64,000 nt of DNA from Alkalibacillus almallahensis (GTDB taxonomy: Bacteria; Bacillota; Bacilli; Bacillales; Alkalibacillaceae): contig NZ_JAASRU010000006.1 in the NCBI RefSeq assembly GCF_011761495.1, positions 1-64,000 on the forward strand. The letters run 5' to 3'. The position numbers and the translations under genes are program-made. Numbering within the stretch: position 1 is the first letter of the stretch; each line of letters starts with the position of its first letter. Shown piece by piece: positions 4,166-62,293 of this stretch. The notes under the pieces are model-generated. The model saw only the letters and a program-made list of their open reading frames with translations, did not search any database and was not told the origin of the DNA.

Positions 4166-4261
4166 GTTCGTCTTCCTCCTCAAATCATAATCCTTTTAAA
4201 GTATAACAAAAATCAACGCACATCACATATAGGCCTATAATACAAGGTTTTGTCAAAGTCC

Positions 4262-4546
4262 GTTGTTGTTATTGTGAATCGCTTTCGGTGGACGCTTTCC
4301 ACGGGCACGGCTCGAGCCAGGCAACTACATCGAGTAAGCTTCCTTGGAACTTGCACCGAGAAAGCATGCTTCGAAGCTTTGCTAGAAGACGCAGGTGCAT
4401 CCCTCGGCAACTAAAGGATCTTCGGCTAAATACCGGACGTCCTGTCCGAACGCCGAAGTGACCCACATCCTGTGGGCCTCTGGGGGTCTCGAGACACGTG
4501 CTGTTCCCGTAGGAGTCGCCACCTACGCTCATCACAATACAACAAC
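4262..4546 (+). repeat. Modular hairpin repeat, copy A (modules M1+M2)
   Basis: GC-rich intergenic element with long imperfect terminal arms. The outer arm GTTGTTGTTATTGTGA at the left pairs with TCACAATACAACAAC at the right; further in, GGTGG pairs with CCACC, ACGGG with CCCGT, and CTCGAG with CTCGAG. Inside lie module M1 (about 4320-4405, containing TTGCACC/GGTGCAT and the palindrome GCTTCGAAGC) and module M2 (about 4407-4480, hairpins CTTCGGC/GCCGAAG enclosing CGGAC/GTCCG, then CCCACA/TGTGGG). The open frames crossing it are not conserved between copies. It lies between rsbX and tex, both on the minus strand. The rest of 4166-4632 holds only the rsbX terminator. Confidence 0.9.
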
Positions 4547-4601
4547 TAAGCATTTACCTTAATATTTCTAATCAACGTTAAGATTTAACAGAGACTAATA
4601 C

Positions 4602-4636
4602 AAAAAAAGAGGCAGCACTCTGCTACCTCTTTTTAG
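4602..4636 (-). terminator. Intrinsic terminator of the rsb-sigB operon
   Basis: AAAGAGGTAGCAG pairs with CTGCCTCTTT on the minus strand, followed by a run of T. The stem overlaps the rsbX stop codon. Confidence 0.85.
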
Positions 4637-18281: not shown

Positions 18282-18382
18282 CCTCATCATCCTTTATCTA
18301 TGTTACATTAATTATAGATTTTTCCTACGCACCCGTCAAAAACATTTGGCAATTATTTGAACTAATCGGTTTATTAAGGTTC

Positions 18383-18670
18383 GTTGTTGATATTGTGATC
18401 CGCTTTCGGTGGACGCTTTCCACGGGCACGGCTCGAGCCAGGCAACTACATCGAATAAGCTTCTTTGGAACTTGCACCGAGGAAGCCTACTTCGAAGCAC
18501 TACTAGAAGACGCAGGTGCATTCCTCGGCCGAAAAGCGTGGCCTGTGGGGTCTCGAGACACGTGCTGTTCCCGTGACGACCTGGATGGTCTAATGTCGAC
18601 GTTGGTCACAGGACGTGACCGCTTTTAGTCGACCAGGAGTCGCCACCTTCGCTTCTCACAATTCAACAAC
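18383..18670 (+). repeat. Modular hairpin repeat, copy B (modules M1+M4+M3)
   Basis: Outer arm GTTGTTGATATTGTGA pairs with TCACAATTCAACAAC. As in copy A the next arms hold CCACGGGCACGG and CTCGAG. It carries M1 like copy A, the short module M4 (GGCC, loop GAAAAGCGT, GGCC) in place of M2, and the 60-bp module M3 inserted after TTCCCGT: hairpins GACC/GGTC and GGTCAC/GTGACC inside GTCGAC/GTCGAC. This is the only copy in a divergent promoter region (marR and methyltransferase). Nothing else is seen in 18282-18755 apart from AT-rich flanks. Confidence 0.9.
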
Positions 18671-18755
18671 TAAGTGCTAAACCTTTGCAACAAAAAACGC
18701 TAAAATTTATAGAACCAAACTAATGAACAACCCTTATAAACAAGGAGGAACAATC

Positions 18756-20754: not shown

Positions 20755-20800
20755 CAAGCATAAAAATAGGTTGGGACTAGCCCTTATAATGCAAAGTAAA

Positions 20801-20838
20801 ACCCGAACGATTTAATTGAAATAATAAAACGTTCGGGT
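20801..20838 (+). terminator. Hairpin downstream of hemAT
   Basis: ACCCGAACG (20801-20809) pairs with CGTTCGGGT (20830-20838) across a 20-base AT-rich loop; a weak T-rich tract follows. Just upstream is GGTTGGGACTAG, a type of sequence I have seen in intergenic elements of Bacilli. It may terminate hemAT or be part of the adjoining repeat. Confidence 0.5.
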
Positions 20839-20852
20839 GTTCTACTTGTATA

Positions 20853-21044
20853 ACGCTCCATCAAAATGCTTCGCTTTCCGCGGGCACGGCTCAAGCCTCC
20901 TCGGAAACTAATGGAACTTCGGCTAACTACCGGACGTCGTGTCCGAACGCCGAAGTGACCCACATCCTGTGGGCCTCTGGGGGTCTTGAGACTCGTGCTG
21001 TTCCCGCAGGAGTCTTCGCATTTTGATTCCGCTTCATAAGTGCT
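20853..21044 (+). repeat. Modular hairpin repeat, copy C (module M2 only)
   Basis: Shortest copy. Its outer arm differs from A, B and E: ATCAAAATGC (20860-20869) pairs perfectly with GCATTTTGAT (21018-21027). Inner arms are GCGGG/CCCGC and CTCAAG/CTTGAG, where A has ACGGG/CCCGT and CTCGAG/CTCGAG. M2 is almost identical to that of copy A. M1 and M3 are absent, so this copy shows the basic architecture. Flanks CGCTCCATCAAA and CTTCATAAGTGC are shared with copy D. Apart from this and the hemAT hairpin the 20755-21129 gap is empty. Confidence 0.9.
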
Positions 21045-21129
21045 TAACTGTTATGATTTCAAACATTCATTTTTGTACAATTAAACAACCTTTTGTTACA
21101 GCTTCTTTTCATTTTTTACTTCATAATTC

Positions 21130-31142: not shown

Positions 31143-31213
31143 ATTATTTTGGCTCGAGCATTATAATCTTAATTGTATAATAAGCGACTGTTTAATATTT
31201 ATTCGTTATAATA

Positions 31214-31491
31214 GAGCACTTATGAAGCGGAATCAAAACACGTAGACGCCTGCGGGAACAGCACGCGTCTCGAGACCCCGGAAGCCCCGCTTTTGGGCTG
31301 AGGGATGCACCTGCGTCTTCTAGCAAAGCTTCGAAGTAGGCTTCCTCGGTGCAAGTAACAAAGAAGCTTATTCGATGAAGTTGCCTGGCTCGAGCCGTGC
31401 CCCGGTAAAGGAAACACGGCGATTGCATTAGCAGAGCCGATGTTGAGCTTATGTCACGTAGAACCAAGCGAAGTGCTTTGATGGAGCGTTA
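31214..31491 (-). repeat. Modular hairpin repeat, copy D (inverted; M1+M4 plus extra insert)
   Basis: Oriented opposite to the other copies. The outer arm ATCAAAACAC pairs with GTGCTTTGAT (one mismatch). It has CTCGAG arms, M1 (about 31305-31390) and M4 in the form GCCC/GGGC instead of GGCC/GGCC. Between CTCGAG and the outer arm there is a unique insert of about 80 bp (31393-31470) that holds GCCGTG/CACGGC. It lies between the convergent cadA and hisC. Apart from this copy and the hisC terminator the 31143-31572 gap holds nothing else. Confidence 0.88.
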
Positions 31492-31500
31492 TTTAAGCAA

Positions 31501-31545
31501 AAAAACCTAAGGATTTACTTCTCAATTAAATCCTTAGGGTTTTAA
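31501..31545 (-). terminator. Intrinsic terminator of the his operon
   Basis: On the minus strand AACCCTAAGGATTTA pairs with TAAATCCTTAGGTTT, followed by a T run. Confidence 0.9.
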
Positions 31546-31572
31546 TTTACTTTATGAGGTTTTGCCTTAATC

Positions 31573-32631
31573 TCATGAGATAAGTGATTGAATGATATCA
31601 ATCAAACGCTTCATTTCGTCATCTGTTCCAACTGAAATTCGAACATAACCTTCTAATCCTGGCTTATTAAAATAGCGAATATATACCCCTCGAGCTTTTA
31701 ATTGTTGATATAAGGTTTCGGCTTCAATTCCCCTTGGCTTAACAAATAGAAAGTTGGCTTTAGAATTCGATACCCAAAATCCTAACTCCTTTAAGTCATG
31801 CTTTACCCATTCACGCGATTTGACGATGGCTTGCAGAGTCTCAGCATAATACGGTTCATCAGCTAATGCCGCTTCAGCTCCAGCTAAAGAAACACGATTC
31901 ATCGTATAAGAGTTAAACGAATTCTTAATCCGTTCTAACCCTTCAATTAACGCTACATCACCTACCGCGTAACCAACTCTTAGCCCTGCTAAAGCGTGCG
32001 ATTTAGATAACGTCTTCGTCACTAATAGATTCGGATATTGCGTGGTTAGACTTATAGCGGATTCTGCTCCAAATTCTACATAAGCCTCATCTACAATCAC
32101 CACTTGATTGGGATTATGAGCGACAATAGTTTCGACTTCTTCGCGCGATAACGCTAAACCAGTCGGCGCATTCGGATTAGGAAAAATAACGCCGCCAACT
32201 GATCGCTTAAATCCTTCAACATCAATCGATAAATCATCTTGTAATGGTATTTGTTGAAAAGGAATATCATAGAGATTCGCATAAACAGGATAAAAGCTAT
32301 ACGTAATCTCTGGCATCTTAATCGCTTCATTCGGGTCGAAAAACGCTTGAAACGCAAACGCTAGCACTTCGTCTGAACCGTTTCCAACAAAGACTTTATT
32401 GACATCCACACTTTCTCGTTTAGCAATCACTGTTTTTAAGCGATCCGCTGTAGGGCTTGGGTATTTCTTCAAATCAGCATTGATCGACTGTTCCATAGCC
32501 TCAAGCGCAAGAGGTGATGGTGGAAATGGATTCTCGTTTGTATTTAACTTAATAACATTGGCATCACTAGGTTGCTCCCCTGGTACATAAGGCTTCGCTT
32601 CTCGAGCTGTCCGACTCCAGAATTTACTCAT
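31573..32631 (-). CDS. hisC: Histidinol-phosphate aminotransferase
   Basis: A 352-residue class I PLP aminotransferase. The PLP lysine is in [17 protein letters not shown], with NPNAPTG for the cofactor pocket and [14 protein letters not shown] at the end. It makes histidinol phosphate from imidazole acetol phosphate. It overlaps hisI by eight bases and is the last gene of the operon. In B. subtilis hisC lies in the trp region, so its placement here is a difference. Confidence 0.95.
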
Positions 32632-44062: not shown

Positions 44063-44133
44063 GTCGCTTTACTATATATAAATCATCCGATTGATATATA
44101 GCGTTCCCTTTGACCCCGAAGGAAATCAGCTAA

Positions 44134-44299
44134 AATATATAGGCAGGTCTCCTGGCTCAGGATCTTAGCGTCTAACCCCTTCCCGTCGATTCGACAGTGG
44201 TTTGGTTAGTTGCTCCCCTACACAGTGGCGGGACCGCGCCGGATTCACACCGGACTTCCCTATTAAGTGAATGCTCGTCATCATTCACACCTATATATT
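44134..44299 (-). promoter_or_regulatory. Cobalamin (AdoCbl) riboswitch
   Basis: On the minus strand the conserved pieces come in order: GGGAAGTCCGGTGTGAATCC, then GGTCCCGCCACTGT, GGGGTTAGACGC and the B12 box GAGCCAGGAGACCTGCC. The closing stem P1 pairs AATATATAGG with CCTATATATT (44134-44143 with 44290-44299). Together with the terminator downstream it should switch off btuFCD when B12 is plentiful. Confidence 0.96.
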
Positions 44300-44385
44300 C
44301 TATTGATTAAGTTAATCTATTTTAATCTTAAGCTGAAACAACATGAACGTCAAACAAATTTTGTTATTTTCTTGAGATTTAACTT

Positions 44386-49348: not shown

Positions 49349-49406
49349 ATAGACTCTAATTTGTTGGTGTAGATACACAATGTAGTTAAGCATTGGGATA
49401 GAGTCC

Positions 49407-49612
49407 GTTGGCTACAAGCGCTCCGCTTACGGTGGATGCTTGCCGCGGGCACGGCTCGAGCTTCCTCGGCCAAAAATGCGTGGCCTGCGGGATCTCGAGA
49501 CGCGTGCTTTTCCCGTGACGGCCCGGACGGCCTAATGTCGACATTGGTCACAGGACGTGACCGCTTTTAGTTGACCAGGCGTCACCACCTACGCTCCTCG
49601 CTTGAAGCCAAC
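49407..49612 (+). repeat. Modular hairpin repeat, copy E (modules M4+M3)
   Basis: The outer arm GTTGGCTACAAGCG pairs with CGCTTGAAGCCAAC, a sequence different from copies A and B yet equally self-complementary. Inner arms include GCGGG/CCCG and CTCGAG/CTCGAG. It lacks M1, has M4 (GGCC/GGCC) and M3 with GGCC/GGCC where copy B has GACC/GGTC. It lies between the convergent enoyl-CoA hydratase and mtlD genes. The rest of the 49275-49751 gap shows only the terminator and AT-rich sequence. Confidence 0.9.
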
Positions 49613-49751
49613 TTAGCACATTGTTCGCGTACGTTGAAAAGTTTTATAGTCCCATAAAAATAAAAATATACAAGACCAAACAGCACAGATGAGAAGTATT
49701 TTTAAAGAAGCACCCTAACATTAGACTTAGAGCTTAAATATATTCCAAAAC

Positions 49752-61843: not shown

Positions 61844-61880
61844 AAAAAAAGGTGTGTAGCTAAAGCTACACACCTTTTTA
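61844..61880 (-). terminator. Terminator after the cold-shock gene
   Basis: AAAAGGTGTGTAGC and GCTACACACCTTTT form a 14-bp stem with a four-base loop and T runs. Confidence 0.92.
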
Positions 61881-61889
61881 ATCAGTCTA

Positions 61890-62087
61890 TTACTGAGCAA
61901 CAACGTTTGCTGCTTGTGGTCCACGGTCGCCTTCAACAATTTCGAATTCAACTGTTTGGCCGTCTTCTAATGTTTTGAAACCTTCCGCTTGGATAGCTGA
62001 GAAGTGTACGAATACATCGTCACCGTCTTGGCGCTCGATAAATCCGAAACCTTTTTCTGAATTAAACCATTTAACTGTACCTGTCAT
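61890..62087 (-). CDS. Cold-shock protein (CspB type)
   Basis: A 65-residue nucleic-acid chaperone with RNP1 KGFGFI and RNP2 VFVHFSAI. It starts [15 protein letters not shown] behind AAGGAGG. The long frame upstream is not translated: it corresponds to the 5' leader. Confidence 0.96.
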
Positions 62088-62293
62088 ATATAATGACCTC
62101 CTTAATTGTGTTGACAAAAATTGAATCTCGTTACTTACGACATCAATTAAGAGAGGCCTTTCAGTAATCATCGATATCAATCATTTGTTCAACTCTTACT
62201 TTACACACTTCTGAACTAAATTGCAACCCCAAACCCTTTAAAATACAAAAACTTTTTTAGAACACCCTATAAAACATGCGTTAATAACACTTT

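Follow-up and report, generated by a model that had tools for sequence, protein, structure and literature searches.

Introduction

BOX elements of Streptococcus pneumoniae and S. suis are composite repeats built of modules, and in S. suis two outer types are described around the same inner boxB (PMC3049150). They are reported to be MITE-like, to possess terminal repeats and duplications, and to be inserted in one another, all of which recalls the elements analyzed here. However, boxB varies in tandem number, whereas in our elements different modules occupy different fixed loops. In further contrast to BOX, the outer shells match two transposon families, and one shell, that of type II, is found where counterpart genomes have terminator-like hairpins. 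The layout boxA – tandem boxB array – boxC was absent from the copies read, in which each module is present once and at its own site.

Two families of insertion sequences are relevant to the outer shells. Wan and colleagues reported that IS1272 transposes by replacing inverted repeats without target duplication (PMC5678879). Type II resembles the IS1272/IS1182 family described there in two respects: its ends match an IS1182-family element, and it takes the place of hairpins of unrelated sequence, with no duplication of the target. The IS1272 paper concerns a full insertion sequence, whereas the mobile unit here is gene-less, about 280–420 bp long, and carries a modular hairpin cargo; neither "MITE" nor "terminator" occurs in that main text. 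MITEs of the IS1595 family share with our elements the terminal repeats, the 8-bp duplication, the absence of a transposase and the high copy number, but here a conserved hairpin core is combined with optional modules, and the same core is also found in other shells.

Stem-loop repeats and RNA candidates of related bacilli form the remaining background. Bhal-1 of Bacillus halodurans is an intergenic stem-loop repeat of 74 bp in 36 copies (PMC2267715), and it was compared with our elements by that description only. Bacillaceae-1 (RF01690) is listed as an RNA candidate, and not as cis-regulatory, in PMC2864571; two of our modules, M2 and M3, reach its curated score. Sequence-string and keyword searching of the open-access literature returned no description of the composite element. 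Two known transposon families account for most of its mobility; what is new is the modular cargo, which crosses between shells.

Results

The window, a 64-kb stretch of DNA, contains the five repeat copies (A to E) of the original prediction, as confirmed by a repeat search and by reading of the sequence (Table 1). The copies are richer in GC than their surroundings (0.54–0.62, against 0.393 for the window) and have no transposase inside them, both as first noted, and the description of a modular set in which optional and alternative hairpins occupy fixed sites was borne out. The coordinates first given were too short: the real ends lie outside them, and all five elements are longer. An independent scan returned the same modules for A (M1 and M2), B (M1 and M3), C (M2) and E (M3) but not for D, which consists of M1 and a further module, M6, that had not been told apart. 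What had been called the exchangeable module M4 is the apex that the minimal element ordinarily carries. Four modules had been claimed, and at least six optional ones were found (M1, M2, M3, M5, M6 and M7), with M7 sitting within M3. The single outer scaffold ascribed to all copies holds for a common core but not for the outer arms, which form three shells: A and B belong to type I, C and D to type II, and E to type III. The ends of type II have decayed in part, and those of C and D cannot be placed to the exact base. The window has further Rfam matches to a cobalamin riboswitch and a cspA thermoregulator, both on the minus strand (44125-44309 and 61846-62166).

Table 1. Features of the five element copies in the 64-kb window
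Feature	Position	Strand	Remarks
Copy A, left 8-bp target duplication TAATACAA	4238..4245		identical to 4596-4603; common to congener G005
Copy A, full type I element	4246..4595	+	terminal inverted repeats 4246-4261 and 4580-4595
Copy A, module M1	4319..4402	+	
Copy A, module M2	4408..4484	+	RF01690 at 4410-4476, 80.2 bits (cut-off 35)
Copy A, right 8-bp target duplication TAATACAA	4596..4603		perfect match to the left one
Copy B, left target duplication GAACTAAT	18359..18366		
Copy B, full type I element	18367..18716	+	
Copy B, module M1	18440..18523	+	
Copy B, plain apex (originally M4)	18527..18543	+	
Copy B, module M3	18574..18634	+	RF01690 on minus strand, 18577-18644, 44.3 bits
Copy B, right target duplication AAACTAAT	18717..18724		7/8 match to the left one
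Copy C, type II element	20768..21105	+	G005 and G002 have a terminator-like hairpin there
Copy C, terminator-like hairpin adjoining the 5' terminal repeat	20801..20838	+	read from the sequence and folded
Copy C, module M2	20905..20981	+	RF01690 at 20907-20973, 74.2 bits
Copy D, type II element, ends approximate	31151..31574	-	G005, G002, G004 and G001 have a terminator-like hairpin there
Copy D, module M1	31303..31386	-	
Copy D, module M6	31404..31465	-	
Copy E, type III element, ends approximate	49352..49734	+	absent from the orthologous site of G005
Copy E, module M3	49516..49576	+	RF01690 on minus strand, 49519-49586, 35.7 bits

Throughout the genome (2.71 Mb), the core pattern GGKCTCGAGACNCGTGCTNTTCCCG with up to three mismatches had 87 matches, 40 forward and 47 reverse. 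The reversed control of this 25-base pattern had none, which excludes chance. The module catalogue comprises 85 copies, the remaining two being C and E in the window. Sorted by their outer arms, 67 of these are type I, 14 type II and 4 type III; with copy E, the last represent a third outer shell of the same core, for whose right end a fuzzy search gave no consistent partner. Optional modules are lacking altogether in 47 of the 85 copies, and the module-bearing ones display 18 different non-empty sets built of the six modules. M2 and the plain apex are alternatives to each other, and each is conserved. On a tree of the scaffold, the changes of M1, M2, M5 and M7 were near the shuffled expectation (for M1, 14 changes against a shuffled mean of 13.8) and those of M3 were slightly fewer (17 against 19.7; 21 of 200 shuffles were as low or lower). 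The scattering of modules on this tree, which consists of 96 nearly invariant columns and resolves little, is weak evidence; with the changes mostly near the shuffled expectation, the modules were rejected as tree-inherited states. Another tree, in which M2 appeared as a single change, was discarded because the apex columns had been included. L144 and L145, a pair of sister copies, differ in M5 and at 2 of the 96 scaffold columns. Origins from phages and plasmids were also rejected: copy B matched none of the 50,697 records of phages searched and a single one of the 72,556 records of plasmids.

Type I elements extend from GGCTCTGTTAAAGT to ACTTTAACAGAGCC, with inverted repeats at the ends. The flanking 8 bp were identical in 13 of the 56 testable copies, a match that mismatched pairs reach in 0.1%, and perfect matches at lengths of 7 and 9 were seen in one copy each; the other 11 of the 67 copies were left out of this test because an end did not match. 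The earlier statement that there is no clear target duplication was therefore wrong for type I. In relatives, both type I ends were found around IS1595-type genes at four loci, with PF12762 above its cut-off in all of them. Three (L284, L287 and L291) have perfect 8-bp duplications and the fourth (L293) matches at 5 of 8 positions; the duplication length of the family was thus measured here on relatives and not taken from a paper. NF033547 of NCBIfam (cut-off 75), run on L291 and on L289 of congener G001, names both IS1595 (210.3 and 202.6 bits, respectively). The gene at L289 is intact and has a matching right end; the left end was looked for and not found. Terminal inverted repeats like those of the autonomous element, together with a duplication of the same length, mark type I as a probable MITE of the IS1595 family. 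In 60 genomes, the present one included, PF12762 had matches at E ≤ 0.001 in 14 and over the curated cut-off in 11. The present genome gave no credible match (best E, 0.21); an intact autonomous IS1595 partner was not found in its sequence, whose shortest contigs read as N, only decayed relics with type I ends. Compared by tblastn with the transposase of L291, the relic at C8:80465-81368 showed 62.5% identity over 64 aa and 74.3% over 35 aa, and that at C6:173637-174281 showed 90.9% over 22 aa with an IS1595 transposase. Pfam gave nothing above cut-off for two relic peptides, and the relic was placed by tblastn instead. ISL3 was rejected as the source of the type I ends, PF01610 being without a match in this genome. 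Empty orthologous sites were found for two type I copies: copy B and the copy at C6:76.7k are both absent from congener G005, which has a further small indel at the former locus, and copy B is also absent from G002, G003 and G004. Separately, G001 (L301, C25:27300-27660) has, directly after a terminator-like hairpin, a type I element that lacks the core; it measures about 105 bp, has IS1595-type ends and is flanked on either side by TTTAGTTT; it is a possible minimal type I form without the GC-rich core.

The end sequence of type II, GAGGCTGGGACAAAA, was present in 33 of 60 genomes, again including the present one, and its reversed control in 0 of 60. At L331 it begins an element whose gene belongs to the IS1182 family (NF033551, 355.6 bits; cut-off 270), and at L344 a matching right end accompanies a transposase fragment that is similar by eye. 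No IS1182 transposase was found in 181 loci of the present genome (529 kb with overlaps) or in the window; ends matching type II lie at two of its contig starts. Comparison with counterpart genomes revealed a terminator-like hairpin at the place of the element in all five comparable loci, namely C, D, 85.8k and 140.7k of this genome and 16.4k of G005. The hairpin is also present in G001, G002 and G004 at locus D, in G001 to G004 at locus 16.4k, and in G001 and G002 at locus C, where G003 carries a type II element that may be either inherited or of independent origin. At 85.8k and 16.4k the outer A and T tracts have clearly been retained; at the other loci this is less clear, and at copy D they are not clearly kept. 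No target duplication was seen by eye at type II copies. Here the original statement overlooked a different behavior, the replacement of terminator-like hairpins. Shared terminal repeats and a replaced inverted repeat are the features found in type II that point to a MITE of the IS1182 family, and the replacement matches the inverted-repeat-replacing mode published for IS1272 (PMC5678879). In other genera, the GAGGCTGGGACAAAA shell was observed around quite different inner hairpins of about 72 to 445 bp (L309, L324, L336, L337 and L338).

The turnover of the elements was assessed by comparing a 177-kb contig of this genome with G005, the aligned blocks being 88.6–93.5% identical. Among the 11 copies on the contig, 8 are absent from G005, 1 (copy A) is shared and 2 lie opposite unrelated insertions. 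Conversely, a 200-kb stretch of G005 holds six copies: A is shared, two stand opposite other insertions, those at 16.4k and 100.1k are absent from our contig, and the sixth falls outside the region compared. The sites at 148.4k and 85.8k were rejected as shared copies; the insertion point, orientation or shell differs, so they represent independent events. Copy A has the same ends, duplication and flanks in both genomes and a different apex, with 151/163 and 114/120 identical bases on either side of the replaced part. Module M2 of our copy is missing from G005, which has there the plain apex GGCCGAAAAGCGTGGCC that is also the apex of copy B. Since the ends, duplication and flanks are common and the apex is not, modules exchange in place; with one family apex replaced by another, a single deletion would not account for the difference. 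Modules appear to be gained, lost and swapped between copies in place, and this one orthologous locus shows a swap directly, the comparison giving no direction for it. As a separate observation, a short tandem repeat of between four and five copies of the unit ATACGGCGAGTTGCTTGCTCC adjoins a terminator-like hairpin at G000:C6:104250-104350; the compared G005 stretch has one unit.

The core is widespread in the order. The pattern GAGCCTCCTCGN{8,38}TGYGGGGTCT was found in 137 of 249 genomes (62 of 106 genera), our genome included, at up to 203 places per genome, with a reversed control of 0. An exact 26-mer marked at least 80 stretches in Alkalibacillus, Allobacillus, Salibacterium, Tenuibacillus, Filobacillus, Piscibacillus and Aquisalibacillus. 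At loci of these seven genera, 52 of the 64 counted copies were plain, in a sample whose search pattern excludes M1 and M5 at tagged copies; M3 was present in four genera, M2 in Alkalibacillus and M7 in Tenuibacillus. RF01690 was detected in 63 of 120 genomes, ours included. Reading by eye revealed Bacillaceae-1-like units at other positions of the core. Among 30 core-pattern loci, such a unit is at the M3 site in L350, and in L357 and L360 it lies on the 5' arm with the M5 and M1 sites to either side; among 17 RF01690 loci, one (L385) clearly carries the unit in reverse orientation where a related core has its apex. Clusters of RF01690 units about 100–500 bp apart were noted in three genomes of other genera (G092, G119 and G136).

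Discussion

Taken together, these results make it probable that the elements are gene-less MITEs in which one hairpin core is housed in several shells and carries a recombining modular cargo. A GC-rich hairpin core common to all copies is set in at least three outer shells. The type I shell has IS1595-family ends, and its copies inserted with an 8-bp target duplication, presumably moved in trans by an IS1595-family transposase. The type II shell has IS1182-family ends, and its copies occupy the place of terminator-like hairpins, as inverted-repeat-replacing transposition predicts; they may themselves act as terminators. The extra hairpin modules occupy four loop positions of the core, one nesting in another, and are swapped most likely by recombination or gene conversion among the many near-identical cores.

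An alternative is that we are dealing with genes for structured RNAs or with cis-regulatory RNAs, whose modules are functional domains maintained by selection, with M2 acting as the sRNA Bacillaceae-1. The structure of the elements is compatible with this idea. The 34 plain type I copies are predicted from their alignment to form one long hairpin of 51 pairs, in which 1723 of 1734 cells are paired, and 10 of the 51 modeled pairs show changes on both sides. For module-bearing copies, folding gives a comparable stem from which side hairpins branch (z-scores of −2.93 for B, −4.00 for A and −4.73 for C). Furthermore, M2 reaches the RF01690 cut-off of 35 and M3 matches RF01690 in reverse; to this extent, for single modules alone, the repeat is a known named one. 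However, the both-sided changes may reflect either selection or palindrome repair. The matches to RF01690 found in this genome, 34 in number (150 of 304 candidates were scored), without exception lie within 120 bp of a core match, inside or beside element cores, whereas PMC2864571 lists the family as an RNA candidate. The copies also stand in both orientations to their neighbors: in a rough assignment from open frames alone, covering 48 of the 67 type I copies with both sides assigned, 14 were ++, 22 −−, 8 convergent (+−) and 4 divergent (−+). Considering also the absence of most copies on one contig from a close congener, we regard the RNA explanation as improbable. The finding is also a caution that a match to RF01690 can, in this genome at least, denote a module of a transposon instead of an RNA gene in its own right. 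The view that a single full-length ancestor gave rise to every copy through the random loss of modules is weaker still, and we give it very little credence. Within the 67 type I copies, M1 with M3 (Fisher P 0.012) and M2 with M3 (0.021) occur together above expectation, which speaks for this view; these are two of ten pairs tested, with uncorrected P values. Against it, the 47 plain copies, the 18 module sets and the swap of apex for apex at locus A indicate that the modules do not differ merely by random deletion. The conserved alternation of M2 and plain apex, the mostly plain copies of the seven-genus sample with its exclusion of M1 and M5 at tagged copies, and the Bacillaceae-1-like units that, as read by eye, other genera have at different core positions or in reverse orientation argue in the same direction.

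It is also conceivable, with a likelihood a little short of even, that type II copies are host terminators that have been taken over, the element surviving by replacing the terminator that it destroyed. The replacement of a terminator-like hairpin at every comparable locus speaks for this possibility. So do the inverted terminal repeats and inner terminator-like hairpin of type II, and the gene context by the same rough method, in which the 12 of 14 type II copies with both neighbors assigned comprised 7 convergent, 5 in line and 0 divergent. These 12 copies are few, however, and termination is predicted from sequence. Moreover, a take-over leaves type I unexplained and would be an addition to the transposon reading, not its replacement.

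Within the reading of the elements as MITEs with exchangeable cargo, the presence of the same hairpin cargo in shells matching two IS families is unusual, as the insertion habits of these families are quite different (8-bp duplication versus hairpin replacement). Such shell-crossing cargo makes module exchange testable by the comparison of strains. The type II elements further suggest that mobile DNA can take over the place of a terminator located downstream of a gene. More speculatively, and in our opinion unlikely, a Bacillales-wide pool of hairpins might circulate between independent transposon families, with Bacillaceae-1 units being mobile and entering the loops of other hairpins in either direction by IS1272-like hairpin targeting. 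If this were true, a single hairpin-exchange system would include terminators, MITE cores and the "RNA family" as parts that can stand in for one another.

Finally, a small extra open frame was observed beside the transposase or its remains in an IS1595-family element and relics, with lengths of 96 aa (L227), 82 aa (L228) and 119 aa (L289).
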